A stretch of DNA of 64,000 nt from Tribonema minus (Eukaryota > Sar > Xanthophyceae > Tribonematales > Tribonemataceae), in contig JAFCMP010000546.1 of NCBI GenBank assembly GCA_017506865.1, positions 546,392-610,391 of the forward strand, read 5' to 3'. Of this stretch, positions 25,627 through 63,622 are shown in pieces (the first letter of the stretch is position 1; each line of letters opens with the position of its first letter). The notes under the pieces are model-generated. The model saw nothing but the letters and a program-made list of their open reading frames with translations, did no database searches and had not been told where the DNA came from. The translations under genes and the position numbers were made by a program.

Positions 25627-25657
<31 letters not shown>

Positions 25658-27677
25658 GGCGGGGCGAAGAAGGGGGCGGGCGGGGGGGGGGCGGAGGGGC
25701 AGCGGAGACTGCGCGCGGCGGCGGCGGCGGCGGCGAGGGCGGAGGAGGAGGGGCGGCTGCTGCCTGCGCAGGCGGAGCTGGCGAGCGCGAACCGCTGCAT
25801 CGCGCTGGGTGAGTAATGTACAGCTTTATTTGTTGTGCACCGGGACGTGAGAGATATGTGTGGTGAGAAGGGAGGTCCGTCGCGAGAGCTTGGGAGTGGT
25901 CAATGTGCCTTTCTTGCCCAGAATATGCGTGCGGAGGAGGAGGGTCGGCTGCTGCCGGCGCAGGCGGAGTTGGCGAGCGCGAAGCGCTGCATCGCGCTCG
26001 GTGAGTGCCGCTTTGTGTGATGTGCATTGGCACATGAGAGATGAGCGTCATGTGCGTCAGGCCTTGCGTTGCATAATACTCGGCACCATTGCTGATGCTG
26101 TACAATGATTGGTTATTGAAGTATCCTACAAATTTATCATTGTCATGACAACCTGCAGTTTCCACCACCAATCTGCACGTCGCTGGCCTTGGGGGGTTTC
26201 TTTTTGTCCCCCTTCTCCGGAGGTGAAAAAGCAGGGGCTTCCCTGACTTTCAGTGTATCTTACAGTGCCTCATTTCAATCACTTCAACTTCAATGTTGTT
26301 GCGCTTGCTGGGCTGCATTCGCACATAACGCGCCCCGCTGCCGATGCTTTCCAATGCATCGAACCTCAAAGTATCAGCTCATGGGTTTACAGTCACTACA
26401 AAGGTCGGGTACTGACGTGGCTTTCACGTTCGCCTCCCGGTTCTCAATGACCACTTCATCTAACAACACTTGCACTCACAATCTTGAATTATAATGATGT
26501 TGTGGTGCACTTGCTGGGGAGCATGCACACGCCACGCCTCCCGCTGCCGGTGCTTTCAAACGCATCGAACCTCAAAGTATCAGCTCATGGGTTTAACTGA
26601 AAAGGTTGGGCACTGACGTGGCTGTTCGCGTTTCCCTCCTGGCTCTCACCTATCACCTTTTCTATTCACTCACCTTTTTGAACTGATGATGTCCTGGTGC
26701 TCTTGCTGGGCAGCATTCACGCATCACGCGTCTGGCAGCAAGGAGGCGGTCGGCGCGCATGGACAGACGGCGGCGGAGGCGCTTGAGCATCACCGAACGC
26801 GCTATCCAAAGGTGAAAGAGCGACATAGGCAAAGCATGACTTTGAAATTTGTCAGATGACTCTTGCAGTTTGTAAGAGTGCTACGATGTCATCCTTATGC
26901 TGCATTCAGTGCTAGCGGAGGCGCTTAAGCACCACCGATCGCGCTATCCACAGGTGAAAGAGCGACATTGGCTGCTCATGACCTTGAACTGTGTTGAAGT
27001 TGAGTCTTGCAGTACTTCATAGAGTGCGGCCGTGTCAATCATATACTTGAAGTATGATTTCAGTCAGTGCTCAGTACAGCAGCAGAGGCGCTGGAGCGTC
27101 ATCGAATGCGCTATCCACAGGTGAAGGAGCGACATTGGCAGCACATGACCTTGAACTGTGTCAAAGCCGATTCTTGCGTACTATAGAGTGCCATCGTGTC
27201 AGTCATACGCTTCAGTCAGTGCTCAGCAGAGGCGCTGGAGCGTCACCGACCACGCTATTTGCAGTTTATATGTTACAATCAATTATTTTGTATCATGACG
27301 CATTATATTTTTATAAGCAACCAATTTGCGCGCACAGCTTCGTAGCGTCGGCGTTCAACTTGCGCTTTGGCCAGCGCGCTCGTGTAGTGCATCATAGGTG
27401 GCCTCAGCAGCGTTGCGGTTTGGCGATTGCTGAGGTGCTGCTCCTCTCCACAAAGCAACACGCTCCTGGTCTCCAACAACACAGCATAGAAACTGGCACT
27501 CATGTGTTTTTCTATATAAATAAATCTGAACATTCCACAAAGCAACACGCTTCTGGTCTCCAACAACACAGCATAGAAACTGGCACTCATGTGTTTTTCT
27601 ATATGAATAAATCTGAACATGTACCATTGCCAGCATGCCGTCGTCTGCACGTCGGCATCCCAGGGTTAGGGTTAGGG

Positions 27678-34499: not shown

Positions 34500-37215
34500 T
34501 GACAGGAGGGATCGCCGCTGCCTCCTCTCACCGGCGCCACACGCCTCTCCGCGCTAGCCTCCCTAACGCTAGCGCAGTCGCGATCCGACCCTGCTGCCGC
34601 CGCGCGCACGCTCGCGGTGCTCAAGCGCGAGAGCAGCGGCAGCGGCGGCGGCGGCGGCGCTGCTGGTTTCGGCGGCGGCGCGGCGGCGGCGGCAGCGGAA
34701 GAGTTGGAGGCGACGGAGCCGCCGCGCAGCGGGCGCGCGCGGCGGCTGGTGGCGGTCGGCAAGGACGCGCTCAAGGCGGAGCGCAAGGCGCGCAGCGGCA
34801 ATACGGTATGTACTTCTGCAGTATGCATTGTACTTCAAATTCCATAGGTGCTATTTCTGTGCTGCATTATTGAGAGTACTTTGAATTAATTCAAGTTATG
34901 GTGATATAGCAGCGCGGCGGCTGGTGGCGGTCGGCAAGGACGTGCTCAATTCGGAGCGCAAGGCGCGCAGCGGCAATACGGTATGTATGCGTTGTATGTA
35001 CTACTTTGAAGTAGTAGATGATCTTTGTATACTACTGCTATTGGAGTTGACCAGTGGTGGCGGTGGGCAAGGATGCGCTCAAGGCGGAGCGCAAGGCGCG
35101 CAGCGGCAATACAGCATGTAGCATTGTATTTAGATGGTGTTGAAGACTGCATTATGGAAAGTGCTACTTCAAGTATGAATCAGTTGATGTGATAGTGGTT
35201 CTGTAGCGCGGCGGCGGGTGGGTCGGCAAGGAAGCGCTTGAGGCGGGCGCAAAGCACGCAGCGGCAAGACGGTATGTATGCGTTGTATGTGGATGCTGTT
35301 TTGTGAAAGTGCTTTAAATTAGGCAAGTGATAGTGATCCTGCAGCGTGGGCGTGGGCAAGGACGCGCTCGAGGCGGAGCGCAAGGCGTGCAGCAGCAATA
35401 CGGTATGTATGCGTTGTTGTATGGGGATGCTGTTTGTATACTGCATGACTTAGAGTGCGTGATTGGTGTTGAGTGATTCTGCATTGGGCAACTGTCAGAC
35501 TATTGGAGTGTACGCATGTACCGCATGCTCACAGAAGCGCATACAGTGAAGCATGCTCCCTTGCGCTACCTCGCCTGCCTGTGTTTTTGCGGTGGCGCTT
35601 GCTGCACACTTCAACTTTAAAGTGCCACAGACTGAAGACCACGTACTCCAGACATGCAATCTACTTCAGATTCAGTCGATCGTGTCCTCGCTGACTGCCA
35701 TGACAACCTCGGCTTTGGCGTGCGGGCGCGACGTACCAAGCGCCGCTTGGCTCATCAAGCATCGTGCGCGCGCGCGTGAACTGCACGTGGCAGCGCTCAT
35801 CGCCTCACTCCTCGAGGCGCAGAGATATGTTAGAGCCCAGCAACACCTCAGTACACTGGACAGCCATCGTGTCCCCGCTAACTGCCACACAAACTTCAAC
35901 TTTTCACGCAGGCGCGACGCGCCAAGCGCCGCGCGCGCGCGAGAGAGGCGCACGTGGCAGCGCTCATCGCGCGCGGCAAGCTCGACCCCACCAAGCCCGC
36001 GCTGCTGCCAGACCCGGAGCGGTGGATACCGCGCAAGCAGCGCTCATATGCGAAGCGCGGCCGCAAGCGCAACAAGCTGCTCGGCGCGCAGGTGATGCTC
36101 AGTGCTCAGTGCAAGCTTTATTTGGCGTGTTGTGGAAGCTACTTCGCGCAAGCAGCGCTCATACGCGAAGCGCGGCCGCAAGTGCAACAAGCTGCTCGGC
36201 GCGCAGGTGATGCTCAGTGCTCAGTGCAAGCTTTATTTGGCGTGTTGTGGAAGCTGCCTCGCGCAAGCAGCGCTCGTACGCCAAGCGCGGCCGCAAGCGC
36301 AACAAGCTGCTCGGCGCGCGGGTGGTGCTCAGTGCTCAGTGCACGAGCTGTCTGGCGTGTTGTTGGAAGCTGCTTTGAATAGTGGCCCGCACACGCAGAG
36401 CGCGTATGTCCCCAGAGCTCAGTACAGGCGCGCGCGTTGCTGTTTCATGGCAGATATGAAAACGAATCAAAAGATCGTAGAGCTCTAGGTGACAAGGGAT
36501 GGTTAGCCGCAAGTGCCTTCCACCAATAACCGTGGTCGCCGCTGCTGCAGCAATTGGCCACGAGTCAAACAGTACCACCGTATCCACCAGTCAAAAAGAC
36601 TTCTGTGTGCAAGCTTTTAGCGTTCGAGGCATGGGTGTTCAGTATTGGAAAGGTCTCACGTGTTCGGTAGGCCAGCTCCAGCCGGCAGCAAAACACAGAT
36701 ATATTATGTGCAAAGTGGCGCACCATGCGCAGGCGCCAGCGCAAGGGGCTTGGTGCACGGGCACCCTCTGCGAGCTCTGTTGACTTTTGTGGCAACTCTT
36801 TCATGCTGCAAATGTGTGTGGTAGTCTTGGGGGGAGGGATGAGCAGGGAAAGCTTTCCTGAGCAGGGAAAGCTTTCCTGCCCAAGCTTTCCCTGCTCATC
36901 CAAGTACATTTGTGAGCGTACATGCACACGTTGTACGTAGGTAGTCCACACTAGTAGCGACTTGCCAGCTTTGTCCGACTTTGTGTACTTGAAGTGTTGG
37001 TCTCTGAAAAACTGGCATATCAAGTTCAACATTCTGAGGTCGCGCCCGTGATCATCTGCGCGCAGGGAGCTGGCGACGGCGCAAAGAAAGAGGAGGCGAA
37101 GCTCGATGTGGCAGCGCGAAAGGCGGCGGCGGCGGCAGCAGCAGCGGAGGCGCCAGAGCAGCGCTCGCCAGTGCCTGTGCTGCGCGGCAAGCGGAAGGGG
37201 CAGGGCAGGATGTAG
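21453..37215 (+). CDS. SRP72: Signal recognition particle subunit SRP72
   Basis: Fourteen exons: 21453-21558, 21951-22018, 22434-22598, 23065-23151, 23889-24104, 25442-25808, 26714-26811, 29094-29198, 30082-30123, 30977-31150, 33023-33163, 34506-34805, 35912-36091, 37066-37215. Lengths sum to 2,199 bases (732 residues plus stop; human SRP72 is 671) and every phase fits. The N-terminal two thirds are TPR helices: FERAYCLFRLNRLKDALAQC, ILYKLGDYDKAAALYQDMVD, SHELLYNAATALAAAGDLEG. Exon 13 carries the family's RNA-binding signature, PDPERWIPRKQRSY (residues 656-669), followed by a basic stretch. The tail is Lys/Arg-rich (RGKRKGQGRM), as usual. SRP72 pairs with SRP68 on SRP RNA and helps target ribosomes to the ER. 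Exon 6 contains a long Ala insertion. Intron 2 has a GC donor (GCAAGT). Exon 7 is the least certain, since four similar copies exist. Confidence 0.93.
24240..25365 (+). repeat. Seven copies of the SRP72 exon 5 end plus donor
   Basis: After the true donor at 24105, the final about 45 bases of exon 5 (encoding EGACRGSLLDDGCTE) with the GTGCG/GTACG donor recur near 24245-24293, 24430-24478, 24593-24638, 24782-24828, 25024-25072, 25142-25190 and 25315-25362. The copies keep the coding sense closely while the spacers diverge. Each contains an internal CAG acceptor-like site and a donor, so each could act as a microexon. Confidence 0.85.
25923..26003 (+). repeat. Copy of the SRP72 exon 6 end plus donor
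   Basis: About 80 bases repeat the end of exon 6 (AEEEGRLLPAQAELASA with K for N, then RCIAL) followed by GTGAGTG, about 190 bp after the true donor at 25809. Confidence 0.85.
26285..27264 (+). repeat. Repeats around SRP72 exon 7
   Basis: Upstream, a block of about 130 bases beginning cttgctggg recurs at about 26308 and 26508, before the version at 26702 that supplies the chosen acceptor. Downstream, the end of exon 7 (AEALEHHRTRYPK then GTGAAAG) recurs ending at 26953, 27120 and 27264 with small changes (AEALKHHRSRYPQ, AEALERHRMRYPQ, AEALERHRPRYLQ). Which copy is used in mRNA cannot be told from sequence. Confidence 0.75.
27456..27621. repeat. Direct tandem repeat, unit about 78 bp
   Basis: Two nearly identical units of about 78 bp (each starting ccacaaagcaacacgct and ending in taaatctgaaca) lie head to tail in the SRP72 intron before exon 8. 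They are AT-rich and do not resemble an exon edge. Confidence 0.85.
27661..27717. repeat. Interstitial telomere-type array (TTAGGG)
   Basis: About nine GGGTTA units in a row with one GGGTTTA variant, inside an SRP72 intron. It is flanked on both sides by unique gene sequence, so it is not a chromosome end. Confidence 0.9.
28306..28966 (+). repeat. Copies of the SRP72 exon 8 acceptor edge
   Basis: Words matching the acceptor and start of exon 8 (true acceptor ctctgcag at 29093, exon SYVPVAVEAALHLRS) recur upstream near 28306-28345, 28549-28575, 28690-28735 and 28908-28966. The last is best preserved (SHVPVAVEAALHLR in sense) but has lost the AG (gctgcg). Confidence 0.7.
30298..30432 (+). repeat. 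Dispersed repeat, copy 1
   Basis: About 105-135 bp with core ggccaatgactgcagcagcg ... gattcgtttccatga. The same sequence occurs inverted at 36448-36590 and direct at 51553-51661, all in introns or flanks of different genes. One frame stays open and nearly unchanged between copies 1 and 2 (AAAATTVIGGRHLR, TIPCHLELY). It is probably part of a mobile element; no terminal repeats could be defined. Confidence 0.75.
30651..30706 (+). repeat. Copy of the SRP72 exon 10 acceptor edge
   Basis: Repeats the acceptor and first codons of exon 10 (true exon VDAAQGNF at 30977): here LDAAQGDFNF after tttgcag. Confidence 0.7.
31185..31565 (+). repeat. Copies of the SRP72 exon 10 end plus donor
   Basis: The end of exon 10 (AAGNAKAAAAVLQEFIDASA then GTGGGTG) is repeated almost exactly at 31208-31274. 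Shorter, decaying copies of its last codons plus donor follow near 31436-31460 and 31540-31556. Confidence 0.85.
32205..32955 (+). repeat. Five copies of the SRP72 exon 11 acceptor edge
   Basis: The acceptor (g)cag plus the Pro-rich start of exon 11 (ccccctcgtcccccgcgttt-like; true copy at 33023) recurs at about 32216, 32396, 32541, 32794 and 32930. Each is followed by diverged sequence carrying ttcaaa(g)atgaagta words and a 'tcaccacacaaa' phrase. Confidence 0.8.
33330..34111 (+). repeat. Copies of the SRP72 exon 11 end plus donor
   Basis: After the true donor at 33164, sequence for CGRDAEAAAAFTALLSPE plus GTGAG/GTGCG recurs ending at about 33358, 33528, 33753, 33937 and 34111. Copies at 33470-33528 and 33695-33753 are the longest. 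Spacers share the phrase agcctagccctaac. Confidence 0.8.
34908..35405 (+). repeat. Four copies of the SRP72 exon 12 end plus donor
   Basis: The end of exon 12 (RLVAVGKDALKAERKARSGN then GTATGT) recurs at 34911-34980, 35054-35115, 35207-35271 and 35343-35402 after the true donor at 34806. Some copies carry one-base frame changes. Confidence 0.85.
35715..35810 (+). repeat. Copy of the SRP72 exon 13 acceptor edge
   Basis: A diverged copy of the start of exon 13 (arg-rich segment then HVAALIA) lies about 190 bp upstream of the true acceptor at 35911. Confidence 0.7.
36100..36335 (+). repeat. Two tandem copies of the SRP72 exon 13 end plus donor
   Basis: The codons RKQRSYAKRGRKRNKLLGAQ plus GTGATGCTCAGTGCTCAGTG are repeated twice after the true donor at 36092, ending at about 36208 and 36328, with a period near 118 bp and very high identity. 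This is the freshest-looking duplication in the gene. Confidence 0.9.
36448..36590 (-). repeat. Dispersed repeat, copy 2 (inverted)
   Basis: Reverse complement of the repeat at 30298-30432, including the segment encoding DSWP and RHLRLTIPCHLELYDLLIRF. It lies in the last SRP72 intron. Confidence 0.75.
36838..36900. repeat. Perfect 18-bp inverted repeat
   Basis: gatgagcagggaaagctt (36838-36855) is the exact reverse complement of 36883-36900. A second copy of the left arm core (gagcagggaaagctttcc) lies in the loop, so alternative stems are possible. It is in the last SRP72 intron. Confidence 0.85.
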
Positions 37216-38375: not shown

Positions 38376-41300
38376 TCATGAGTCGTCGATGTTGCCCATG
38401 GAGCGCGTGCGGCCGCTGTGCAGGTTGCGCATGCTGGGGTAGCGCATGATGAGCTCCGGCCATGATGCCTGCGGGGCACGGGATGTGTCGCAAATAGGGG
38501 GGGGGGGGGAGTTACTGACTGATGGACCTTTTCATAGTTGCGTTTTTTCAAAAAACTAATCGCTTTAAAGTACAATCTGAAAGAGTACTTGAGAGCTCTT
38601 GTATTGTGCAGTCTGTGCAAATTTGTGATGAACAAATCGATCAAATGATGAGCTCCGGCCATGATGCCTGCAACGCAATCGGAAGTGTCGCAAATAGAGG
38701 GCGGGGTTGGGGGGGGGATTGAGGTTAGTGATGGGCCTCTTCATATACGTCAAAACGAATACTTGGACGTGTTCTGACAGCCGGTTTCACGCTGCAAATC
38801 CAGGCGTGAAGAATGTGCACCGCATTCTGTACAGCGTTCCAGCTTAACATACGTAGCCAACGCATCGTCGCTCCCAGCGCCAACTACCAGCGCAGGTACA
38901 GCCCTTCAGCTTACCGCTCGTGGGGCAGGCAGCAGCAGCTCGAAGCCTAGTAGTCATAGCGCTACACAGCCACTCTCGCCATGTTTCCTCGTGCTGAGTG
39001 TTGCCTGGCGTGCTGCCTCATCACGAGTTCGGCGCGATCTGATTGGCTGGTCTACGATTCATTCACTTTCACATTGTTCTTCACGGCCCTCCAAAAGGCG
39101 ACGTGACTCCATCTGCAAAGTGCCTCTGTCTTGACGCGTGTTTCACCCAAAGTCGTGCAAAAAGCGGCTGTACAGAATGGCCCTGCCTCTGTCTTGACAT
39201 GTTTTTCACCTGAGTTCACGCAGAAACCGGCTGTACAGAATGGCCCCAAAACAGTCAGACCGCGCCGGATTTGTGATGAGGCCCGCCAAGCGTCACTCAG
39301 CACGCGCAGACATGACTAGAGTGGCTGTGCAGCGCCACGACTACAAGGCTTTGAGCTGCCGCTGCCTGCGCCACGAGCGGTGCGCCGAGGGGCTGTACTT
39401 GCGCTGGTCGTCAGCGCTGCGAGTGACGTCGCGTTGGCCGCGTATGTGAAACTACAGTAGAGGGCCGTACAGAATGAACGCGTTTCGCAATTCACGGTGA
39501 AAAGAACTGGCTGCGCAGAACAGGTGTTAGTACATGAGAATAAATATGAGTCTGGTGAGTGCCTGAGAGTTCTTGCACGTGAAATCTGACCAAAATTTTT
39601 GATACATACTTCGTCCAAGTCTTCAAGGTCAAACCAGCAGGAAGCATGGCTCAGCAAAACTTAACGGGTGGAACTGCAGCCAGCCATCATACCGTCTGTT
39701 CGAAGCTGCCATTTGCCTCCAATGCAACCTAGCAATGTGTACAGGAGCTTCTCTAACCCTAACCCTAACCCTAACCCTAACCCTAACACTGTGCGCAGTT
39801 GCTACTTAACTTTTGCCATGTCATGCTGGCACCTGAATGTTTCCCGGCTCCAGGCACTGCACTTGACTGCTGCACCGTGAAGCACGCCTCGTACATGCGC
39901 CTGACACTTGAATGCTTCGCAGTGGGATGGAAACGCGGAGCCGTATTCAAACAGCGCGTTGCCTCGTTCAACCATGCTGCCGCTTGCTTGCTACAATACA
40001 CACCGCCTGATGATGTCAGGAAAATCGTTCAACAGAGCGCTCGACAGCTTCTAGCACAGCTTCTAGTAATAATAGCGATAGTAATACCCTTCACTGCTTC
40101 GAAGCGCAAGTGCACAAGTAGAGCTGTAAGCAGCACATAAGTAAAGCAACTACCTCAGACGACGCAACAGTTTCTGCACAACTACGCTTTTCTGCTTCGG
40201 CGCAAAAACGCACAGGCAGAGCCCTACGCAAATAGCACATCCCATCAATCAATTACCTTGGACGATGATGCCGTTGAGTCGGCAACGTGGCTGTCTTCGT
40301 GCTACAGTACATGGCGCCTGATGACGTCAGAAAAGCCACTCACTAGAGTGGTTGACAGCATTTCTGGTGCAACTACACGCAATTGGTTCACAGTGTAAAA
40401 GCACTTGAGCAGAGCCAAAGGGTTAGAATTAGGTTAAGGGGCAAGGTTAGGGTTGGGGTTAGGGTTGGGGTTAGTAACACATCACCTGGGGTTAGAGTTA
40501 GGTTTAGGTGTAAGCTTAGGGCTAGGGCTAGTAACACATCACCACGGGTCAGAGTTAGGTTTAGGGGTAGGGCTAGGGTTAGGGTTAGCAACACATCACC
40601 TCGGACGACGATGCCATTGAGTCGAGAGACAGGAAGTCTAGCCGTCCCAGAAACATACGCTGAACAGGGCGCTTGACAGCATCTAGCACAGCTCTGCGTC
40701 ACCGCTTTGGAGCGAACGCATGCAAAAAACAACCTTCAAGACCAGCACATCCCGCCAATCAATTACCTCAGACGACGACGCCATCGAGTCGAGGGACAGT
40801 ACATGGCGCTTGATCATGTCAGAAAAGCCACTCAACAGAGTGTTTGACAGCTTCTGGTGCAACCACATATACATGATAAAGTACAAGGTGAAAGCACTTG
40901 AGCAGAGTCATACTTCAAGAAGCGTAAGCAACACATCACCTCGGACGACGATGCCATTGAGTCCAGGGACAGGAAGACCAGCCTTCCCAGGACAAGCACG
41001 AGAGGGCCCGCGAAAACGCCTTGCACGCCAAACACGGCGAAACCCATGAATATGGACAGCACCGTCAGGTACGTCAGGAAGCCGTTAAAGCGCGACACTC
41101 CCGTGTTGATGATGCGCTGCAGGGCGGCGCAAAGAAGAGAGGGGCATTTGGTTATACTTCAAGGAGTGTCAATGACATACTTCAACGGAACCCATAATCT
41201 GAAGATAGGAACCTTGCAGTTAGAAACCTTGCGGTAGAACAAGAGCGGACAGTGCGCAGCTAGGGTGTTGATGAAACCCAGACCTTGTGACAATCACCTC

Positions 41301-52754: not shown

Positions 52755-53514
52755 TGCAATTGCTGCTTGCCTTCCACGTGATGAACACTTTTCGAGCAAG
52801 TTGTCAAGTCAGCTACAGTGAAGTTGACGCGCCTACTTGAGGTTCGCGCGACACCAGTTGTTGTTGTTATAGTATGCATGGCTTCTTGAACTCAATCACT
52901 GCTGATGCAACAAAAATATGCACGGAGTGGCACATCTGCACAAGGCATAATATATGATCACATGCATGGTACTGGAAGCACCGATGCGCGAGCTCTATTG
53001 GTCAATTTGGTACCCCTTGACAAGAGTGCACCACGTCATTTCTTTCATTCATGCAGCACCAGCAAGCCCCTAAGTCGGTGCCTGCTTGTAAACATCCGCA
53101 GCGCCAAGTGCCCGGCAAACCTGTGTGTTGGAGATTGGACAGCTGCCTGGCGCCAACAAAATCCCACAAAAATGATACGGCTTGGGGGTGTATTCAGACA
53201 GTTACAGGCAGTTACACCTCACAGGTTGGCACAGGTCTCAGTAGACCTGTGTAGTCGGTGTAGACCTTGACATGTGATTGAGAGCTGGCCTGACCTTAGT
53301 TGAAGGCAGGTGCAACTAGTTGGGTCACATGCCAAAGGGCACATCAAAGTAGCATGCACAGCATCAGAACCTCCCCTGCAAGCAGCAAGCCCGAACCTTG
53401 CTGTGCCAGCATTCGTCCAGCCCCAAGCCTTCCGTCTCTCAGCAGCAGAATAAAATATCCGGTAAGCGCATCGCGTTTCCTTTCGCATAACATTTCATTT
53501 GAGTTCTCTGAAGC

Positions 53515-53757
53515 GTGTCTACTTGTTTTGCTCTTCCAGCTTGCTTGTTTGCATTCATGACAGCATCACAAGGTAAGCCGCTTCAATTTGGCACCCGAAG
53601 ACAGTCCTTACCTCGTGCTAACCCCGCCCGCAAGGGCAGCAGCGTGGTGATCGCTGTCCAATGTATCACTGCTCGAATCGTGTCAAAGCCTTTCGAGGAC
53701 CCAGATTACGTAAAGCAATACGTAAAGAACAGCCGTGGGAAGCGAGTTAAACGTTAA
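53515..53757 (+). CDS. Small basic ORF upstream of the retroelement
   Basis: A small frame ending KNSRGKRVKR. The ATG at 53557 (MTASQGKPLQFGTRRQ) gives 66 residues. A pyrimidine-rich AG (ctcttccag) lies just before it, so it may be an exon. The protein is strongly basic with no recognisable domain. It differs from the host exons in lacking GCG-rich coding. It could belong to the retroelement leader or to a host gene; I cannot decide. Confidence 0.25.
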   Translation: MSTCFALPACLFAFMTASQGKPLQFGTRRQSLPRANPARKGSSVVIAVQCITARIVSKPFEDPDYVKQYVKNSRGKRVKR

Positions 53758-54572: not shown

Positions 54573-57500
54573 ATGGTCAAGACTGACCATGGCTCCAAGA
54601 AGCCAACGAGTGGGTCAAGCCGCAGCGGAGGTGTTAGTGGCGGTGCTAGGCCTGCTGGCAGCACTGCTGCTAAGAGCAACAAGGGCGGTCAGCGCTCCGC
54701 TACGCGCCCCGCACCAAGCTCGGGTGACAAGCCGTCACGCCCCCCTCCCCGGCCCGCGGCAGCGTCCGCACAACCCAGCCAGGTCGGTGCTAGCGCACCC
54801 GACACGTCTGCCTCGGTACGGTCCACAGAATCAGTAGTCACTGGTGCCGCACCTCCTTTTATACGTAATTTCGCTGAGTCCAGCGACGAGCCCGGCGGTG
54901 GCGGCTCAGAAGCCGAAGCCATAGTGGCAAGGCAGTTACGTTTGAGGCAGAAAAGAGAACAGCTTGCAGCAATGGGCATTATGCTTAGCGAAGCCCAGGT
55001 AGCAGAAGGCGAAGAAGCTTTTGCACGTGCAGCTGTTGAGAAAAAACTCGCACCAACGAAAAGCCCACGCAAGACACCGCGTGCAGCTGCAACAACCGCG
55101 CCAGTTGTGCCGGTAGCCGCGCCAGCTGTGCCGGCAGCGCCCGCGAAGTCTGCGGCGCCAGCACCTGCAAAGTCCACAGTGCCAGTTGCAGCACTGGTTG
55201 CGCCCGCGGTGGCCCCACCTAAGGTCGCGCGCAGTCAGCCGGCCAAGACGTCGGTTACGCGCGGTGCACGGGTCCCAGTTGCGGCGCCTGAAGTAGCACC
55301 GGCGGCTCCGACGCCTCAGAGCTCCAAGCCATCAGCTAGGCTAGTGGCTCCCACATACTATACTGCACCAGCGAGGGCCCCTGAAGCCTCAGATAAATCG
55401 CCTGTGACGCAGCCGCGTCGGGGTGCAAGTGGTAAGGCGCGGCGTGTGCCAGTTGTGCCACGTAGCGTGCCAGTCATGCAAAGTTCGCCAGTTGTGCCAC
55501 GTAGCGCGCCCGTCATACCGCGAAAGCCAGTTGAGCAACAAGCGGCAGAGCGACGGAGGGCAGTTAGGCAACTGCTCGAGTCTTCTGAGTCATCTGGTGA
55601 TGAGGGTGGTGTGCCCTTTGATCCTGAGGGCACAGATGAGGCTTATGACCAGTGGCGTGAGGGCATCGAAGCTCGCGTCGAGGCACATAAGCGAGCTGCC
55701 AAGGCCGCCAAAACGGCTGCAACGTTCGCCGAAATTCACGAGCGTGCCCTTTACGAACGCCTTGGCGAGCTCCAGCTTCGCGTCACCAGAGCTCCCAGTG
55801 AGAGCAAGAACATGGTGAAGAACTCACTGCTGCCGATGGCGCGGACGTTCGCTGCGGAGCAGGCCGAAGAGGTGCGCAAGCATAATGTTGCACTTCTGGA
55901 AAAACGTGGTCATGACTTCAAAGCTAGCCAGTTCGGCGAGCTGCTGACCATAGGTAAACACCGTAAGCGGTCCAATAGTTGGCATCGCTTCGCCTTCGGC
56001 ACAGGCGACGGTGAGGAGGCGGAACTCTGGCGAATGCTAAGGGAGTTCGAGAACACGCCTCTGGTCACCGAGGAGGCGCGCCTAGCTGCGGACACTTACC
56101 CGCGCAGCTTGGTGACGCACCCGTTCCTCAACACTGACGGGCACTCCGACACGTCGGACGACGACGCAGCCGGCGCAGCTGCGAGTCCGCGTGAAGATGG
56201 CGCAGTGGCCGGCGTAGCCACCAGCGCTTCGGCTCTAGGTGAGAGCATTAGGACTGCGGGGGCAGTAGAACCCTCGTACTCCTCAGTTGCCATGACGGCG
56301 CGGAAACCCAAAGTTGACTTGAGGGGTTTCGGCGGCACTGGCGTCGTCATTGTAACGCAAGTAGGCAGGCTTGAAGCTTCCATTAGAGCTTTTGAGCGTA
56401 GCTGCGACACGCGTGGCGTGCCCAAGTCGGCCTACTCAGAAGCGCTGTTGCAGAGTCTGACCAAGAGTCAGTACGCTGATCTGACCAGCGCAGTCACCAA
56501 TGAGCGCACGGGAATGCTAGAAACTCGTGCGTTTAGTGATTTGTCTTATGAGCAGATGGTGCAATGCCTTACGGCAGCGTACGATAGCACATCTGCCAGG
56601 CAAATAGCACTTCAAAAGTATCATGAACTCACGCGTACCTCCGGTACCAGCCCCGAAGTGTGGGGCAGGGAGGTAGTTGCAGCCGCGCACGACGCCGGCT
56701 GCGCGGACAACCAGCAAATTGTTCGTATGAAGTTCGTTCATGAACTGCCATTATGCTGCCGTCAAGAAGTAAACGGCATGTATGAGACCTGGGATCTAAA
56801 GAACACCGCTTTTCCCAAGGTCGTGGCAACTGCCCAGCAAAAGTGGCAGGCAGCGCCTATTGACGAGCGCGAGACTCGAAATGTTGTGTCTGCAATGGCC
56901 GCGGCACACATCTCAACCCCCCCCTACTCTGACACAGGCAAGCGCCCTGCCAAGGATGGGTGGAGCGTGGTCAGTAACGACCATCGCTATAAAAAGAAGA
57001 ATAAGCTTTCGGCTGTTCGCGCTGTGTTGGCGGGGCTGAGCGCTAACGAGCGTCGCCAGCTTGGAGTCAGCGACCGCGCGCCGCAGGGCAAGGCTAGCTC
57101 CGCAGGCGATAACGGCGGCGGCGGAGCCAAGCCCCAGAGCAACTTCAAGTGTCTTGGCTGCAGAGTGAACCAGGGAGACTGGGACACACTTATGCGGCAC
57201 AAGACTACCTGCCCTCAGTGCATTGCGCACCGAAAGAGGATGGCAGAAAAGCACCGCCAAGGTGAATCACACTTGCAGTTGTCTGCTGCCTTGGTAGGAA
57301 GTGACTTGCCTGCTGCAAGTTCAGCATCAGCAATCAGTGAATTGCCTGGTGTAGTTAGAGCAGATGCATGTTCGGCACAGGTAGCTGAGCATGCCACTGA
57401 CGCTGTTTACGATGTCTCTTTGTGCGCACAGATGGCGGCAATTGAGGGTGGGCCAGAGCCACCACCCAGAGTTATCAAACACGCGTCTATCTGCTGTGGG

Positions 57501-60500
57501 GCGCTAGGAGGCGCCATAGCTGGGGGTAAGTTGACCTCTAGAGCAGGTTTTGTAACACGCACAGTGCTTGCAGTTGACAAGAATGTCAAGGCAATTGAGG
57601 CTCTGCATGAAGTTCATCCAGAAGTGCCCACAATGACTGCATGCATGACTGATGCGAAGGTTGTTGCACGTCTTCTTGACGAGAAACCTGACATCACCAC
57701 CATCTCCCCGCCCTGCACAGATTTTTCGGCAGAGGGCAAGAAGGTCGAGGGCGAAGCTGCCGAGTGCACGGTCCATGCCGCACGGCTCATCGTGCGGGCC
57801 AAGCTTCGGGTGGTGTTGTATGAGAATGTGCCAGGAGTGCTAGTGTCACGCGCGTTTGCACGCGCAGTACGCATTCTCAAGTCGGCGGGTTACATGCTGT
57901 ACATTGCCAAGTTAAAGGCTTCTGAGTTTGAAGTACCTTGCAGGAGGCAGAGGGTGTACATTGTCATAGTACCAGCAGGGGTGGACTCACGTGAGGCGCT
58001 CCAGAGGTTCGGTGCGGTAATGAATACCAAGCGTTTACACAGCAGACCCACATCTGTTCGCTCTCGCTTGCGCTGCCCCGAACGCACATTCTTCTTGCAA
58101 CCACGCAGTGCTCAGCACCCTGGTGTTTTGGATGCTGATGGCTTGTTGCCTAGCCCAGTGCGCAGACTGCCTGGTAGGCCCACTGCGAGTTATGTTGCAC
58201 ATGCAAAGGACGCTGGCCCAGTGGCATCTGCCCGCTTGCTGTCGCTTGCGGAAATGGCGGTGCTCATGACGTATTATCATGAATTACCAGCGAGTGCATG
58301 CAGTAGTGATGTACGGCGTTACATTGCAGACTTGTTCATCCCAGAGATGGCATTTCACTTGTTCGTGGCAATTGAGGCCTCAGGCCTGTGCACACTGCCA
58401 GAACAACAGGTACGTTTGCCGCGTAGGTCAGACTCTACGTTGAGGCATTCAGTTGACTGCCCGCCCCCATCTTGGTTGGCTGGTCAGAGTGGTTCGCTGG
58501 TGCAGGCCGCTACCGCGGTACACGCAGCGCCCACGTCAAGTGCACACTGCTCAGCAGCAGTGGCGCGTAGCATACATGCAAAGGCGCATGATGCAGGGTA
58601 TGCAGAGGTACCCATAATTCCGATGCGCAGTGCATGGGAAGAGCCAGAGGTAGACTTGGCTGTGGTGCAGCCCGGCATGGCTGACATCGTGGAAGTCGAT
58701 GACTCTGACTCAGGGTCTGACTCTGAGTGGGACTCACAGTCAGTTATGAGCGTTTGCAGTAGCGCAGACGACATGGACATTGACACAGAAATCAGTGCTC
58801 CACCCATTGCGGCCGCAGCGGCACGCAAGAAGCTCGGCGGCGGTACAGACCCGCGCCTTGCCCCAGGTGAGTTGAAGGCAGCGCTCAGGCGCGCTGGCCT
58901 TGATGCTCAGTCTCTAGGCATATTAGACCATGTGCCAGGTGTCAGCAAGTTAGACACAGCCCCACCAGTGAGTGTGGCAGAGACAATTAAGAATCTCACA
59001 GAAGAGATCACAAAACAGAGGGAACCAGTCAAGTTACCTCATGTAGGCCTTGCAGTAGGGTCCCCTGAGCCTAGCTCGGTAGAGCGCTCCAAGTCGGAGG
59101 CTCCAGTGGAGTACATACGCCCAGTAGCCGGTGTTGTACCTCCAGGGCAGATGTTTGTGTCCGCGTCGTTACGCGTACAAAGCAACTCTCAGACGCCCAA
59201 AGAACTCTATGTGCGCGCCATGGTAGACTGCGGTGCAACCGTAACCGTCATGGGCAAGCGCATTGCAGACAAGCTCCCCAACAGCTATGTATGTACACCT
59301 CAGCAAGGTGACTACACTGAGATCCTCTTGGCAGACGGCAAGACGTCGCTGCAGATCAGTGGTGTGGTCAATGCATGGCTGCGGTTTAAGAACAAGATGT
59401 TCTTGCACAAGTTCTATGTGGTAAACGCACCCATGGACTTACTCTTAGGTACGGATTTCTTTGCCCCGCATGGCTCAGTCGTCTCGTATCACGGCGGTAG
59501 CCCAGCCTTCTTCCCAGGGGGACTAAAAGGTGTGGCCATACGCCCCATGCACGACAAGAATCGCGCAGACAACGCGAACGCGCATGCGGCAGCACTAGCC
59601 AGTTGCAAGGGCAATGGCAGCGCTGAGAGCACTGAGGCACCAGACAAGCCTCAGCAGTGCTCAGCTAGGATGGCATATAACACTGTACTGGCACCATCGT
59701 CGGAGACGATTGTGGAACTCACGCTGCTACCAAAGCCAAAGCGCGTGCAGCCCTATGAGGCATTGCTCATGCCACAAGAAACAGTAACTACAGAAATGAT
59801 GAGAGGCAAAGGTGTTAAGGCAAATATCACCGCTCTCACTGTAAATGCCAGCGGCACGATATACGCTACATTGAGCAACACTTCAATGTACCCGATTTAC
59901 GTGCGCCGCAACACGTATTGGGGAAAAGTGACTCCAATTAAGGCTGATGATCTGCTAGAAGTGCAGACAGCTACTCAGCAGGCTCTAGAAGCCAAACTGC
60001 TAGTAATAGCGGCCAAAAGGCACTCTGAAAATGCTAAGTTAGAGGCAGAATTAGCTGCTAGCATAGGCAAGACTGCCAAAGAGGTTGCACAAGAAGTGCA
60101 ACGGCTGGCAGACCTTAGCCAGCGCCACAATGACCAGCTAGAAAACTGCACGGATGCAGAGCTGGAGGAAATCCTTGTGAAAGATGGCAGGCTTGCGCCT
60201 CATTTGCAAGGAAGGGGGAAAGATGGGGTACTTTCAAAAACAAAAGCACTTGACATGCTAAAAAAGCACAGGAATGTCTTTGCTAAGGACCCTAAAAACC
60301 CTCGAGTCACTCAGCATTTTGAGATTGATGTTGACACTCAGACGGCCGAGCCGGTGGCGGACAAGGCACGCCATTGGGCTTTCAAAGAAGCCGAGTACAT
60401 CATGAAACAGATTCAGATGATGGCAAAGCGCCAACAGATTGAGCCATCAGCTAGTGCGTGGGCAAGCAACCCAGTACTAGTGGTTCAAGGCGACAAGATC

Positions 60501-61835
60501 CGCTTCTGCATAGACTTCAGGAAGTTGAATGCGGTCACGAAGCGTGATAGTCATGGCTTAGGCAACATGGATGACATGATGCGGGCTGTGCAAGGTGCGA
60601 GGATCTTATCTTCGTTAGATCTGGCAGCGGGTTACCATCAGATCCCGCTGGCCAAGACGGCTAAGGCCAAGACGGCCTTCAGAGCCCCAGACGGCTCGTT
60701 GTGGCACTACAAGGTGGCGCCATTCGGGCTAGTGAACTTGCCAGCGCAGTTCACGAGATTGATGCACCAAGTGCTGGGAGATGCCTTAGGCTCCCACGCG
60801 CTAGTGTACATAGATGACGTGTTGGTGTATGGCACGGACATCGAGGAGCACATCGAGCAGTTAGATGATGTTCTTGGCCGCATAGGCGCGGCGGGCATGA
60901 GTGTATCTCGCCCAAAGTGTCAGCTGTTTCAAGCTGAAGTCAAGTTCCTAGGCCATATAGTTGGCGCCGCTGGAACAAGACCAGACCCTGACAAGGTCAA
61001 GGCCATGCTTGACATGAGCCCCCCACTGAAAGGCGGGGTACCAGACAAGCAGTTGGTACAAGTGGTTATGGGAGTGTTTAACTATTACAGGCGATATGTA
61101 CCCAACTTTGGGGCGATATCAGAGCCTATAGTAGCCCTGACCAAGAACAAAGCAGTCATGGTTTGGGGGTCTGCGCAAGAGCGGGCTTTCAAGCGGCTGA
61201 AGAGTGCCATGTGCGACAGTCGCATAGTGATGCACCCAGATTTCAGTTTGCCTTTCGTATTGTACACCGACGCCTCCAAGACGGCGACGGCAGGTGTGCT
61301 TACACAGTTCAGACCTGTGAGTGAGGTCGAAAGGGCAACAGCGGGACAGCCATATGCTCACACGGGCAGGCGCCGCATAGCTGAAGGCGAGGAGGTCAGA
61401 GAAGTAGTCGTTGGCTACTTCAGCAAGCTGAACTCTGAACCCGACGCGAAGTTAGGAGCGACGGCAGTAGAGTGTCTGGCAGTAGTGCTGGCGCTCAACC
61501 ACTTCAGGCCTTACATTTGGGGTAACCCCGTTACAGTGGTCACAGATGCCGCTGCGCTCAGGTGGCTGTTGACGTTACAAGACTACAACGGCAAGCTACT
61601 AAGATGGGCCATGCGCATACAGGAGTATGACGTTACCATTCAGCACAGGCCTGGCAAAAGGAATGCCAATGCTGATGCCCCATCCAGGCTGCCACAGCAG
61701 GCAGAGTTAGATGCTGAGCGCTCTACGGAGCCAGCAGACGAACAGTGGCCAGACGCAGTCCCGAGCATGGACGCACCGCCGTCAGGTGTGCGCTTTGCGG
61801 ACGAGGCCACGAGAACGCACAAGTGGCCGACGTGA
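54573..61835 (+). CDS. Gag-methyltransferase-protease-RT-RNase H polyprotein
   Basis: 2,420 codons. Residues 1-350 are low-complexity Ala/Pro/Ser with AVPAAPAK-like and VVPRS repeats. About 370-430 is a charged helix. About 585-770 looks like a Gag capsid region. C860, C863, H876, C880 and C883 form a zinc-binding-type motif. About 967-1280 is a C5 methyltransferase: motif I SICCGALGG (972-980), catalytic PPC with Cys1048, ENV (1084-1086) and RRQR (1124-1127). Protease has DCGAT with Asp1552 and LLLGTDFF. RT has YIDD (2079-2082) and SLDLAAGYHQIP. RNase H begins near YTDAS (Asp2233) and continues through VVTDAAALRWLL to RPGKRNANADAPSR. The methyltransferase would be made as part of the polyprotein and could be released by the protease. 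The ATG at 54573 is the first in frame after a non-coding leader. Confidence 0.93.
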   Translation: MVKTDHGSKKPTSGSSRSGGVSGGARPAGSTAAKSNKGGQRSATRPAPSSGDKPSRPPPRPAAASAQPSQVGASAPDTSASVRSTESVVTGAAPPFIRNFAESSDEPGGGGSEAEAIVARQLRLRQKREQLAAMGIMLSEAQVAEGEEAFARAAVEKKLAPTKSPRKTPRAAATTAPVVPVAAPAVPAAPAKSAAPAPAKSTVPVAALVAPAVAPPKVARSQPAKTSVTRGARVPVAAPEVAPAAPTPQSSKPSARLVAPTYYTAPARAPEASDKSPVTQPRRGASGKARRVPVVPRSVPVMQSSPVVPRSAPVIPRKPVEQQAAERRRAVRQLLESSESSGDEGGVPFDPEGTDEAYDQWREGIEARVEAHKRAAKAAKTAATFAEIHERALYERLGELQLRVTRAPSESKNMVKNSLLPMARTFAAEQAEEVRKHNVALLEKRGHDFKASQFGELLTIGKHRKRSNSWHRFAFGTGDGEEAELWRMLREFENTPLVTEEARLAADTYPRSLVTHPFLNTDGHSDTSDDDAAGAAASPREDGAVAGVATSASALGESIRTAGAVEPSYSSVAMTARKPKVDLRGFGGTGVVIVTQVGRLEASIRAFERSCDTRGVPKSAYSEALLQSLTKSQYADLTSAVTNERTGMLETRAFSDLSYEQMVQCLTAAYDSTSARQIALQKYHELTRTSGTSPEVWGREVVAAAHDAGCADNQQIVRMKFVHELPLCCRQEVNGMYETWDLKNTAFPKVVATAQQKWQAAPIDERETRNVVSAMAAAHISTPPYSDTGKRPAKDGWSVVSNDHRYKKKNKLSAVRAVLAGLSANERRQLGVSDRAPQGKASSAGDNGGGGAKPQSNFKCLGCRVNQGDWDTLMRHKTTCPQCIAHRKRMAEKHRQGESHLQLSAALVGSDLPAASSASAISELPGVVRADACSAQVAEHATDAVYDVSLCAQMAAIEGGPEPPPRVIKHASICCGALGGAIAGGKLTSRAGFVTRTVLAVDKNVKAIEALHEVHPEVPTMTACMTDAKVVARLLDEKPDITTISPPCTDFSAEGKKVEGEAAECTVHAARLIVRAKLRVVLYENVPGVLVSRAFARAVRILKSAGYMLYIAKLKASEFEVPCRRQRVYIVIVPAGVDSREALQRFGAVMNTKRLHSRPTSVRSRLRCPERTFFLQPRSAQHPGVLDADGLLPSPVRRLPGRPTASYVAHAKDAGPVASARLLSLAEMAVLMTYYHELPASACSSDVRRYIADLFIPEMAFHLFVAIEASGLCTLPEQQVRLPRRSDSTLRHSVDCPPPSWLAGQSGSLVQAATAVHAAPTSSAHCSAAVARSIHAKAHDAGYAEVPIIPMRSAWEEPEVDLAVVQPGMADIVEVDDSDSGSDSEWDSQSVMSVCSSADDMDIDTEISAPPIAAAAARKKLGGGTDPRLAPGELKAALRRAGLDAQSLGILDHVPGVSKLDTAPPVSVAETIKNLTEEITKQREPVKLPHVGLAVGSPEPSSVERSKSEAPVEYIRPVAGVVPPGQMFVSASLRVQSNSQTPKELYVRAMVDCGATVTVMGKRIADKLPNSYVCTPQQGDYTEILLADGKTSLQISGVVNAWLRFKNKMFLHKFYVVNAPMDLLLGTDFFAPHGSVVSYHGGSPAFFPGGLKGVAIRPMHDKNRADNANAHAAALASCKGNGSAESTEAPDKPQQCSARMAYNTVLAPSSETIVELTLLPKPKRVQPYEALLMPQETVTTEMMRGKGVKANITALTVNASGTIYATLSNTSMYPIYVRRNTYWGKVTPIKADDLLEVQTATQQALEAKLLVIAAKRHSENAKLEAELAASIGKTAKEVAQEVQRLADLSQRHNDQLENCTDAELEEILVKDGRLAPHLQGRGKDGVLSKTKALDMLKKHRNVFAKDPKNPRVTQHFEIDVDTQTAEPVADKARHWAFKEAEYIMKQIQMMAKRQQIEPSASAWASNPVLVVQGDKIRFCIDFRKLNAVTKRDSHGLGNMDDMMRAVQGARILSSLDLAAGYHQIPLAKTAKAKTAFRAPDGSLWHYKVAPFGLVNLPAQFTRLMHQVLGDALGSHALVYIDDVLVYGTDIEEHIEQLDDVLGRIGAAGMSVSRPKCQLFQAEVKFLGHIVGAAGTRPDPDKVKAMLDMSPPLKGGVPDKQLVQVVMGVFNYYRRYVPNFGAISEPIVALTKNKAVMVWGSAQERAFKRLKSAMCDSRIVMHPDFSLPFVLYTDASKTATAGVLTQFRPVSEVERATAGQPYAHTGRRRIAEGEEVREVVVGYFSKLNSEPDAKLGATAVECLAVVLALNHFRPYIWGNPVTVVTDAAALRWLLTLQDYNGKLLRWAMRIQEYDVTIQHRPGKRNANADAPSRLPQQAELDAERSTEPADEQWPDAVPSMDAPPSGVRFADEATRTHKWPT
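57470..58412 (+). other. Cytosine-5 DNA methyltransferase domain
   Basis: All main motifs are in order: cofactor-binding motif I (ICCGALGGAIAGG), motif IV with SPPCTDFSAEGK (the Cys that attacks cytosine is residue 1048), motif VI ENVPGV and motif VIII RRQRVYIV. A target-recognition-like region follows, and then a motif IX/X-like segment (RLLSLAEMAVLM, RYIADLFIPEMAFHLFVAIE). Motif X is degenerate compared with the usual G-N-A-V. The spacing resembles short, single-domain enzymes of about 310 residues with no regulatory domains. It appears catalytically competent by motif; its target site is unknown. Confidence 0.9.
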
Positions 61836-63622
61836 ACAGCTGTCGTGGGTACACGGCGGACGCACGTTACGGGCCAGCGTTCAAGTTCAACGAGGCCGTC
61901 GCCATATCAGGCGCGGTGGCCGCTAGGTTAGCCGCTCTGACAGCTGTGGAGCTAGCACAGTTGTTGGACAGAAGGCTAGATGACTCCACGGTGGAGGAAG
62001 CTGAGGTTGATGAAGTTGAGATCAACACAGCGTATGCAGAGCCAGTCAATAAGTACACCGGCTCGTGGGAGCATTCCCAAGCGCAGCGACTCTTAAGGCA
62101 GATCGCATGCGACAGGCGACGCAGCATCAGCTCAAAGAGGGCCAAGTGCAGCGTCACCACGGCTCAGCCGGCGGCAGACTCATTGGAAGAAGGAGAGATT
62201 CCAGAGGTAGAAGCTGCTGCTGATGCAGATGAGGCAGACGAGCCACCGGATGGCGAAGCTGTTTTAGGCAAGCGCAAGAAGACGCTGCCAAGGCCAGAAG
62301 TAGTGCAGTTGCTGAAACGGGTGGCCGAGGGAGACTCGCCTGCCACGCCAGCAATGCTCAGCAGAGCCGCATTTCTTGAAGTTCAGAAAGCGGACGGTTT
62401 CTGTCAAGCAGTGAGCAAGATGCTCATTGAGGGTGACATACCCGAAGGCGCGGAGCTAGCCGCTCACGTCTTAGCACAGAGAGAGCAGTATACCATCGAG
62501 GAAGATGGCCTCTTAGTGCACAGTTCAACGAGCCACCCCAAGAGAGGTATGGTGTTGTTGCAGTGGGTCGTGCCAGTGGTGCTACGAACCCTAGTCATGC
62601 GTCTAGGGCATGATGACGCAAGCGCTATGCATTGCGGCATAGGCGCTACGCACACGCGTATATTCGAGAGGTATTTCTGGCCTGGTATGGGCGCGGACAT
62701 ACGAACGTACGTGCAGAGCTGCATGACATGCCTCGAGCGCAAACGCGCCAGCTCCACTCAGTACAGACAGTGGTTAGCTGAGCCCGTGCGTATGTGGCAG
62801 CGGCTCAACATAGATATCACAGAGCCTGGTATACAGTCCACGGCAGGGCACAGATATGTCCTGACCATAGTGGAAGCAAGGTCCGGCTTCGTGTGGCTCT
62901 CGGCCATGCACGGCCAGGGAACGCGCGATGTTACCCCGCACCTCATGACAGTGTTCCTTGAGATTGGCGCGCTAGTGGAGGAGCTGTGCTCTGACAAGGG
63001 CAAGGTCTTCCTAGGCAATGTGGTCACAGACCTTTGCAAAGCGTTCAAAGTGAAACGCATAGAAACCAGTGCCTACCACCCCCAGACCAATGGTGTGGCG
63101 GAGCACGCAAATGGTCGTGCCAAGAAGGCACTAGCATCCTGGGTCAGCGCTCAACAGACCAACTGGCACGAGGGCTTAGAGCTTGTGCAGTTCGTGCTGA
63201 GGACAACGCCCAGAGGTGAAACAGGTTTAACACCCTTTTTCTGTGTGTACGGTCGGGAAGCTTCACTGCCACATGATGCATTTATGCACGAGGATGGCAG
63301 CAGGAAGTTGGACCTACACGAAGAGATTGAGCACAAGTTAGATATGCTTGAGCTTGCAGACAAAGTGGTGTCAAAGGCGCTGCAAGTGCGCGCCCAGAAG
63401 ATCACCAAGCGCAATGAAGCTATTAAGCGCGCGGTGAAGTTCGCCGTCGGTGACTATGTCATGATACGGCTACCCAGGCAAAGAGACAGGTCGGCTGCTC
63501 TTGATGCCAGGTATGTGGGGCCTTGGCAGATCGAGGCTCGCACAGGCGAATCAGGCCTCTCATTCATCTGCAGGATGATGGCAGAAGAGTTAGACACACC
63601 ACAGCTCATGTTGAGAACATGA
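61745..63622 (+). CDS. Retroelement integrase ORF, -1 frame relative to the polyprotein
   Basis: Overlaps the polyprotein ORF by about 90 bases in the -1 frame. The ATG at 61745 may not be used if the product is made by frameshifting. An acidic linker with EEGEIPEVEAAADADEADE comes first. Then a zinc-binding region (H289, H296, and the CMTC pair), then the catalytic core with Asp357, Asp417 and Glu453; the last two are exactly 35 residues apart (D-x35-E). HPQTNGVAEHANG surrounds the Glu. A GPY/F-type segment (ARYVGPWQIEAR) follows near the C terminus. The stop at 63620-63622 appears premature because related coding sequence continues in other frames. A Cys-rich start (CALCGRGHE) might be a degraded zinc finger. 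Confidence 0.9.
   Translation: MARRSPEHGRTAVRCALCGRGHENAQVADVNSCRGYTADARYGPAFKFNEAVAISGAVAARLAALTAVELAQLLDRRLDDSTVEEAEVDEVEINTAYAEPVNKYTGSWEHSQAQRLLRQIACDRRRSISSKRAKCSVTTAQPAADSLEEGEIPEVEAAADADEADEPPDGEAVLGKRKKTLPRPEVVQLLKRVAEGDSPATPAMLSRAAFLEVQKADGFCQAVSKMLIEGDIPEGAELAAHVLAQREQYTIEEDGLLVHSSTSHPKRGMVLLQWVVPVVLRTLVMRLGHDDASAMHCGIGATHTRIFERYFWPGMGADIRTYVQSCMTCLERKRASSTQYRQWLAEPVRMWQRLNIDITEPGIQSTAGHRYVLTIVEARSGFVWLSAMHGQGTRDVTPHLMTVFLEIGALVEELCSDKGKVFLGNVVTDLCKAFKVKRIETSAYHPQTNGVAEHANGRAKKALASWVSAQQTNWHEGLELVQFVLRTTPRGETGLTPFFCVYGREASLPHDAFMHEDGSRKLDLHEEIEHKLDMLELADKVVSKALQVRAQKITKRNEAIKRAVKFAVGDYVMIRLPRQRDRSAALDARYVGPWQIEARTGESGLSFICRMMAEELDTPQLMLRT

Follow-up and report, generated by a model that had tools for sequence, protein, structure and literature searches.

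A cytosine-5 DNA methyltransferase carried in the polyprotein of Ty3/Gypsy retroelements of the alga Tribonema minus

Why a retrotransposon should carry an enzyme of the kind used to silence it is an open question, and the genome of the alga Tribonema minus bears on it. The question is raised here by a stretch of 64,000 nt of T. minus DNA (contig JAFCMP010000546.1, positions 546,392-610,391; hereafter the window), the right end of which coincides with the end of the contig. An earlier note, made from the sequence of the window, proposed that a long open reading frame (ORF) in it belongs to a retroelement with its own cytosine-5 (C5) DNA methyltransferase (DNMT). Besides the copy in the window (the focal copy), we analysed its relatives in the genome searched, which comprises 158 Mb in 554 contigs; C-numbers and L-numbers are contig labels and locus labels, respectively.

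The methyltransferase domain and the element that carries it

The proposal of a retroelement with its own C5 DNMT is borne out by motifs, family match and predicted fold. PF00145 (DNA_methylase) matches the main ORF above the Pfam cut-off (62 bits, 8.3e-17), and motifs I, IV (PPC), VI (ENV) and VIII (RxR) of this family are all present, exactly where the earlier note had located ICCGALGG, SPPC, ENV and RRQR (Table 1). The ordered set of motifs arose in 0 of 2000 shuffles of the main ORF. The core of motif X is normally of the GNSV type, and this core is not preserved in the motif X-like stretch. The domain lies within the range originally given, 57470..58412, but its in-frame start is 57471, and reading from 57470 meets 19 stops. 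In the predicted structure, model residues 5-333 superpose on residues 2-325 of M.HhaI with a root-mean-square deviation of 3.1-3.4; the model thus assigns a C5-methyltransferase (C5-MTase) fold to the segment, its C-terminal half (target recognition domain and motifs IX-X) included, and not the non-methyltransferase fold that the earlier note had named as fatal to its claim. A profile of the retroelement DNMT family (A1) matched DNMT2, HhaI and DNMT1 in the Protein Data Bank (PDB). No DNMT3 chain was found among its 52 PDB matches at E<=1, a negative for which the control is that a phage-rich profile reaches DNMT3A at only ~0.02. DNMT5 was among the 50 fold matches listed, and the lack of DNMT3 among those 50 decides nothing. 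Judging from the profile matches, the enzyme differs from the Dnmt3-type ones published from the Gypsy elements of Klebsormidium and the DIRS elements of Symbiodinium.

The element itself was delimited by comparison with its near copies. The window holds a single long terminal repeat (LTR), the 3' edge of which was placed by the target-site duplications of the near copies and by its CA end; the 3' LTR of the focal copy is unassembled because the window stops at the contig end. A primer binding site usually pairs with the 3' end of a tRNA, but no tRNA was matched to TGGCACCCGAAG, a search of the 64-kb window for tRNA genes having found none. Three near copies (C235, C168 and C120), ~12.0-12.1 kb each, carry the same LTR sequence at both ends as plain direct repeats (3/3), with pairs 97.3, 98.3 and 99.5% identical, indicating recent insertions. 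A purine tract precedes the 3' LTR in all three, and a 4-bp target-site duplication was seen in two of the three (AGTA in C168 and CTAT in C120), none being seen in C235.

The earlier note had described a single ORF with Gag, protease, reverse transcriptase (RT) and RNase H. One frame does run through 54573-61835 and holds clear RT and RNase H domains, but the Pfam scan of the main ORF found no Gag family, and the protease matches fall below the curated cut-offs; the label gag-like rests on position and on the zinc-knuckle-like C-x2-C...C-x2-C stretch. The order protease (PR)-RT-RNase H-integrase (IN) in Pol is that of Ty3/Gypsy (Metaviridae). The closest solved relative of the focal RT is the Ty3 RT (1.1e-43), with two Ty3 entries, 4ol8 and 7q5b, at the top of its eight PDB matches at E<=1e-10. 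Paired LTRs and target-site duplications are found in near copies, the focal copy having the 5' LTR only, with the primer binding site-like sequence after it. It is virtually certain that we are dealing with a Gypsy element carrying a DNMT.

Table 1. Features of the focal element in window coordinates, and places of a frame change in one related family
Feature	Position	Strand	Basis
5' LTR, 413 bp, TG...CA	53173..53585	+	comparison with three near copies (C235, C168, C120)
Primer binding site-like TGGCACCCGAAG, 3 nt past the LTR	53589..53600	+	sequence reading
Main ORF, 2420 aa: gag-like - DNMT - protease - RT - RNase H	54573..61835	+	ORF list and Pfam
Zinc-knuckle-like stretch FKCLGC...CPQC, end of gag-like region	57144..57221	+	sequence only, no family match
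C5 cytosine DNA methyltransferase domain	57471..58412	+	profile envelope 57402-58517
Motif I ICCGALGG, S-adenosylmethionine (SAM) binding, one residue more than sister subfamilies	57489..57512	+	sequence, alignment
Motif IV SPPCTDF, catalytic Cys	57705..57725	+	family profile aligned to M.HhaI FPCQAF
Motif VI LYENV	57816..57830	+	family profile aligned to M.HhaI
Motif VIII CRRQRVYIV	57939..57965	+	family profile aligned to M.HhaI
Motif X-like ADLFIPEMAFHL	58326..58361	+	sequence, alignment; GNSV-type core not preserved
Aspartic protease, VDCGA ... LLLGTDF	59211..59462	+	PF13975 0.00035 and PF13650 0.00088, both below curated cut-off; motifs
Reverse transcriptase, YIDD	60492..60962	+	PF00078 9.2e-27
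RNase H	61239..61628	+	PF17917 5.1e-22
Second ORF with integrase, out of frame with the main ORF in the focal copy and overlapping it	61745..63622	+	ORF list and Pfam
Integrase H2C2 zinc domain	62570-62746	+	PF17921 2.9e-17
Integrase rve	62798-63082	+	PF00665 4.4e-06, below cut-off
L040-type places with frame change near residue 35	C8, C76:23453, C101:3019, C314, C423, C511:1660571, C538 and others

Copies, clades and selection across the genome

DNMT-bearing retroelements, which the earlier note had supposed to be rare, are common in this genome. The PF00145 search yielded at least 123 matches, all above the cut-off (123 of 378 candidates scored). Three DNMT queries gave 111, 142 and 115 listed matches and contributed 108, 78 and 86 of these to a union, for which the merged count is at least 333 places, or at least 329 without L001-L004, which differ in kind; the copy number that the earlier note had proposed to determine is thus ~329, a rough figure for places rather than intact genes, as some are fragments and a few may be host genes. 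With the focal RT as query, 126 matches were listed, 46 of which span most of the query at 88-100% identity (35 of the 46 at >=98%).

The DNMT travels with the rest of the element in about two thirds to four fifths of the matches listed. It lies 2.5-9 kb upstream on the same strand in 109 of the 150 integrase matches listed, and 1.5-4.5 kb upstream in 100 of the 126 RT matches listed; the downstream control gave 2 and 0, respectively. For the remaining 41 integrase and 26 RT matches no DNMT was in the list, owing to truncation, an unlisted type of DNMT or true absence. As the DNMT itself had led to most families, five families that came from the lists of RT and integrase matches provide a fairer check: all five carry the domain in long open frames, and none was in the PF00145 list. 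The other outcome that the earlier note had held fatal was a one-off insertion, with the domain missing from other copies. Apart from the focal copy being frame-broken and cut at the contig end, nothing supports such an insertion (of a bacterial-type MTase) or a chance ORF, and the many related copies, their shared clades, the upstream linkage to RT and integrase and the shuffling result described above leave it practically no probability; it was rejected.

Several arrangements among these matches are worth recording. Six integrase matches of one score class (71.2 bits; C96:181631, C112:960143, C257:529081, C334:741852, C401:73332 and C57:1001986) have no DNMT listed and represent a candidate DNMT-less Gypsy family. 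At C509:276190-278118 and C112:335106-336812, a DNMT match lies only ~1.3-1.5 kb upstream of an integrase H2C2 match, possibly a third domain order or a deletion. L013 (C101:632529-642528) consists of two inverted L011-type DNMT elements that are 99.9% identical across 1.8 kb, and L011, L012, L014 and L015 bear alanine-rich tandem repeats, offset by ~105 nt, in the polyprotein near its PR-DNMT part.

The RT tree (14 rows) and the DNMT tree (17 rows), which share 13 rows, recovered the same three groups; since three groups allow one unrooted arrangement, the agreement lies in group membership. Clade A comprises the focal element, L017, L020, L027 and L038 (plus L037 and L039 in the DNMT tree) in the order gag-DNMT-PR-RT. 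The order is PR-DNMT-RT both in clade B (L011, L015, L016, L018 and L023), in which L011 carries a C-terminal chromodomain, and in clade C (L019/L021/L022, L040 and L041), in which the protease of L022 is degenerate; the position of PR was judged by eye from D-x-G-A-like and LLG/IIG-like motifs. A larger tree of 42 rows held the 17 retroelement DNMTs, 18 MTases from viral contigs, M.HhaI, DNMT1, two DNMT2 and three other sequences of the same genome, with DNMT1, DNMT2 and HhaI entered as N-terminal halves. All 17 retroelement DNMTs formed one clade (95/94), with A+C nested within it (99/97), outside the DNMT2, DNMT1 and prokaryotic Dcm (HhaI) groups. Of the placements proposed in the earlier note, the tree thus covers these three groups, and it would be compatible with an origin near DNMT5, DNMT6, ChloroDNMT or the SymbioLINE orphans. 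As a positive control, the exon at L004 (C523) grouped with DNMT2 and is probably an exon of the DNMT2 of the host. L001-L003 (twice on C223, once on C181) are stand-alone C5-MTase ORFs of ~370-390 aa; L001, whose best solved match is M.HhaI, and L002 lie outside the retroelement clade.

No viral or bacterial donor was found. Scans with profile A1 gave no relative among 53 pattern matches in viral contigs and none among 12 in genome contigs. With profile A2, 142 of 219 stretches in viral contigs were relatives, 80 of which were kept, and the 18 of these viral MTases placed in the tree fall outside the retroelement clade. When Ty3 was added to the RT tree, the best tree joined it to clade A (87/88), with approximately unbiased test p-values of 0.18 for Ty3+B and for A+C and 0.08 for Ty3+C. 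The DNMTs form one clade, but with these alternative positions of Ty3 among the RTs the data would be compatible with both one old capture followed by a domain move and several captures.

The DNMT is under purifying selection in the near copies: across five copies (10 pairs), dN/dS was 0.07-0.34 for DNMT and 0.14-0.43 for RT. Among six mid-range DNMT pairs, dN/dS was lowest in L040/L041 (0.14), L037/L039 (0.19) and L018/L023 (0.23), all at dS of 1.5-1.7, and L019/L022 (0.30). Near copies show more synonymous change in the DNMT than in RT, and divergence peaks at 57573-57873 and, higher, at 62673-63273, an integrase stretch differing by up to 16% between copies that are otherwise 97-99% identical; the elements look like mosaics produced by recombination. 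The observed/expected ratio of CpG was 0.82 in the element, 0.92 in the remainder of the window and 0.46 in the 413-bp focal LTR. In element sequence, differences of the C/T type occurred at CG 1.5-2.5 times as often as the mean of CA and CT in nine of the ten copy pairs, the exception being a pair with 15 such differences and no CG excess. Together with the CpG ratios, this excess is weakly compatible with CG methylation.

Degraded catalytic loops and the role of the domain

Three types of element have an altered or missing catalytic loop. L038 (C117:185950-189550), a multi-copy member of clade A, has STLC instead of SPPC; 13 places match its domain over the full length at 97-100%, and we infer that each such place keeps TLC. 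At six of the 13 the match is 100% and the frame at least 3129 aa long. L041 (C15:514300-519000) has STRC instead of SPPC. In L040 (C214:50600-55600), the stretch between motifs IV and VI is gone, the catalytic Cys included, and ENA replaces ENV. The PF00145 scores are 15.8 bits for L040, below the cut-off, and 33.9 for L041, and both preserve motifs I and VIII. The loop junction of L040 is aligned gap-free at 98-100% identity by 27 places, and relatives at 62-69% identity mostly align as two pieces flanking the junction, as a retained loop predicts. The whole L040-type domain is in one frame at 11 of the 27 places, four of which lie in frames of 3452-3455 aa; at the other 16, the first ~35 domain residues are in a different frame (Table 1), mostly with long open frames on both sides. 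This change calls for caution, as it may be a lesion inherited from a common source copy or a frameshift site. When L040 is compared with L041, the DNMT shows 66-71% identity and a dN/dS of 0.12-0.19, as against gag (47%, 0.30), linker (61%, 0.29) and RT (93%, 0.03); the protease is 72% identical, but its dS is saturated and gives no ratio. The two DNMT halves have dS of 1.1 and 2.0, and one branch of the pair has retained the loop. With one sequence of each degenerate type read, we take this as a domain probably still constrained without its usual catalysis. The other lineages read retain PPC or APC, ENV and RxR.

Our favoured explanation, which we consider rather probable, is that a Ty3/Gypsy lineage of the alga has long carried a C5-methyltransferase in its Gag-Pol, and that the packaged enzyme methylates the cDNA of its own element, catalysis being ancestral but dispensable. 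The domain would be produced within the polyprotein, enter the particle together with RT, bind SAM and the new double-stranded cDNA through its HhaI-like fold, and methylate cytosines of the cDNA before integration. New copies would then land pre-methylated, either hidden from or matched to the marks of the host, and in some derived families catalysis would later have disappeared while the domain stayed, presumably as a DNA binder. The focal-type enzyme more likely than not methylates DNA; that cDNA methylation is its main selected role we advance tentatively, at slightly less than even odds.

The reading frame of the focal copy is interrupted ahead of the integrase, and because the main frame breaks there, the focal copy is not a fully intact element; the frame from RT to integrase is unbroken in four near copies (C235, C168 and C120, compared base by base, and L024), although the gag region of three of these is itself frame-broken. 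A number of observations weigh against the favoured explanation. In the focal subfamily, motif I is one residue longer than in its relatives. The suggestion in the earlier note that this copy may be functional is weakened by both this residue and the frame break. The alignment behind the fold model included ten phage-type MTases that steered it, and the domain modelled from a single sequence had a pLDDT (predicted local distance difference test score) of 43. Constraint is weak in two of the six mid-range pairs, L016/L018 (0.65) and L017/L028 (0.77), which are frame-broken elements. The element is slightly depleted in CpG relative to the remainder of the window, and the CG excess was measured within the element alone. 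The TLC, TRC and loop-less families have all been amplified, so that catalysis is not required by every lineage. Finally, the KnitGypsy and SymbioLINE DNMTs had no activity in yeast, a result called inconclusive by the authors (PMC5890265).

The amplified families also bear on an alternative that we regard as unlikely though a serious one, in which the domain is kept chiefly to bind nucleic acids, or as a structural module, in the particle or the pre-integration complex, catalysis being optional and lost more than once. If this is the case, a pseudo-methyltransferase binding SAM and DNA, loop-less in some amplified families, might serve particle assembly, cDNA handling or integration (a function that we likewise doubt), and the primary job of retroelement DNMTs would be to bind nucleic acids, self-methylation coming second. 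The loop-less L040 type with its ENA, nevertheless found at 27 places and in frames of up to 3455 aa, fits such a module, as do TRC in the L041 type and TLC in the L038 type, but a single sequence represents each degenerate type, and the out-of-frame domain starts at 16 of the 27 places mean that part of the L040 family may consist of defective elements mobilized in trans. The dN/dS of the L040/L041 DNMT does lie below that of gag and linker; nevertheless, RT is much more constrained than DNMT in this pair, and the DNMT ratio comes from halves with dS of 1.1 and 2.0 in a pair of which one branch kept the loop. The motifs kept in other lineages are also against a mere binding role.

It is improbable that the enzyme is a device of self-restraint, methylating the insertions of its own element for silencing by the host and so keeping copy number down, from which host and element would both gain. 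Slowed retrotransposition is raised as a possibility in PMC5890265, and the CpG ratio of the focal LTR is consistent with methylated, decaying LTRs, but this value may reflect mere base composition across 413 bp, and the elements are abundant and recent. Methylation of RNA (genomic RNA or primer tRNA) in the manner of DNMT2 is very improbable: the best PDB match of profile A1 is Dnmt2 of S. pombe, a tRNA MTase (9.8e-16), but M.HhaI is nearly equal (2.7e-15) and ranks above Dnmt2 by fold comparison, and the retroelement DNMTs do not group with DNMT2, whereas the L004 exon of the same genome does. To judge between methylation of cDNA and the alternatives, the genome offers a natural experiment, as three clades with two domain orders, and with PPC, altered (TLC, TRC) or absent loops, have all been amplified; comparing methylation, expression and mobility across these families would tell whether the role is catalytic or non-catalytic.

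The rest of the window and comparison with known systems

A scan of ten of the 15 longer ORFs elsewhere in the window gave no Pfam match, and PF00504, a chlorophyll-binding family, has 92 matches in the genome. Tandem units of 124 bp and 115 bp at 31062-31310 and 36030-36375 resemble exon pieces joined to intron pieces, with AGGT-like edges, and possibly reflect intron birth through tandem duplication. The window also holds an interstitial TTAGGG-like tandem repeat (40459-40604) and a strong local GC skew (+0.27 at 24001-26000), unlike its remainder.

Among known systems, yeast Ty3 (Metaviridae) and the chromodomain Gypsy elements resemble the present elements in the order of RT, RNase H and integrase, in the RT itself, which is closest to that of Ty3, and in the C-terminal chromodomain of the L011 type. 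To our knowledge, Ty3 carries no DNMT. As compared with M.HhaI/Dcm-type prokaryotic and phage C5-MTases, the retroelement DNMTs form a clade of their own, have lost the motif X core and lie inside a polyprotein. Retroelement-borne DNMTs were described by de Mendoza et al. 2018 (SymbioLINE, SymbioDIRS-Dnmt3 and KnitGypsy-Dnmt3), and that paper (PMC5890265) reports that SymbioDIRS-Dnmt3 domains methylate CG in yeast and that the role of such DNMTs remains unclear; similarly, PMC12344493 names DNMT3s of LTR Copia and of DIRS elements, as well as LINE (long interspersed nuclear element) orphans. The present case is not described in the available parts of PMC9998398, PMC12477816, PMC6338049 and PMC5963040. 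A literature search without preprints and most subscription journals found neither non-Dnmt3 DNMTs in Gypsy elements nor loop-less retroelement DNMTs, which does not prove their absence.

As far as the accessible text of PMC5890265 goes, the SymbioDIRS-Dnmt3 and SymbioLINE-Dnmt elements of Symbiodinium resemble ours in numbering hundreds of retroelement DNMTs per genome, in having more than one domain order and in belonging to old lineages, but they are DIRS (tyrosine recombinase) and LINE elements rather than LTR/Gypsy. Closest in kind, on the same part of that paper, is KnitGypsy-Dnmt3 of Klebsormidium nitens, also a Ty3/Gypsy element of an alga with a C5-MTase in its polyprotein, several copies and purifying selection. 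Its domain is a Dnmt3 and its repeats are DIRS-like, in contrast to the profile matches and plain LTR pairs found here; furthermore, the focal clade has its DNMT ahead of the protease, and in some families here the catalytic loop is degraded, whereas key DNMT residues are reported to be conserved in all three structural families treated there (PMC5890265). The precedent invoked by the earlier note from dinoflagellates and Klebsormidium is sound, but the enzyme here appears to be of another type, and a non-Dnmt3 source would join the captured methyltransferases of LTR elements. Capture of DNMTs by retroelements is already known; what T. minus adds is a variant, a non-Dnmt3 enzyme in Gypsy elements together with loop-less families.

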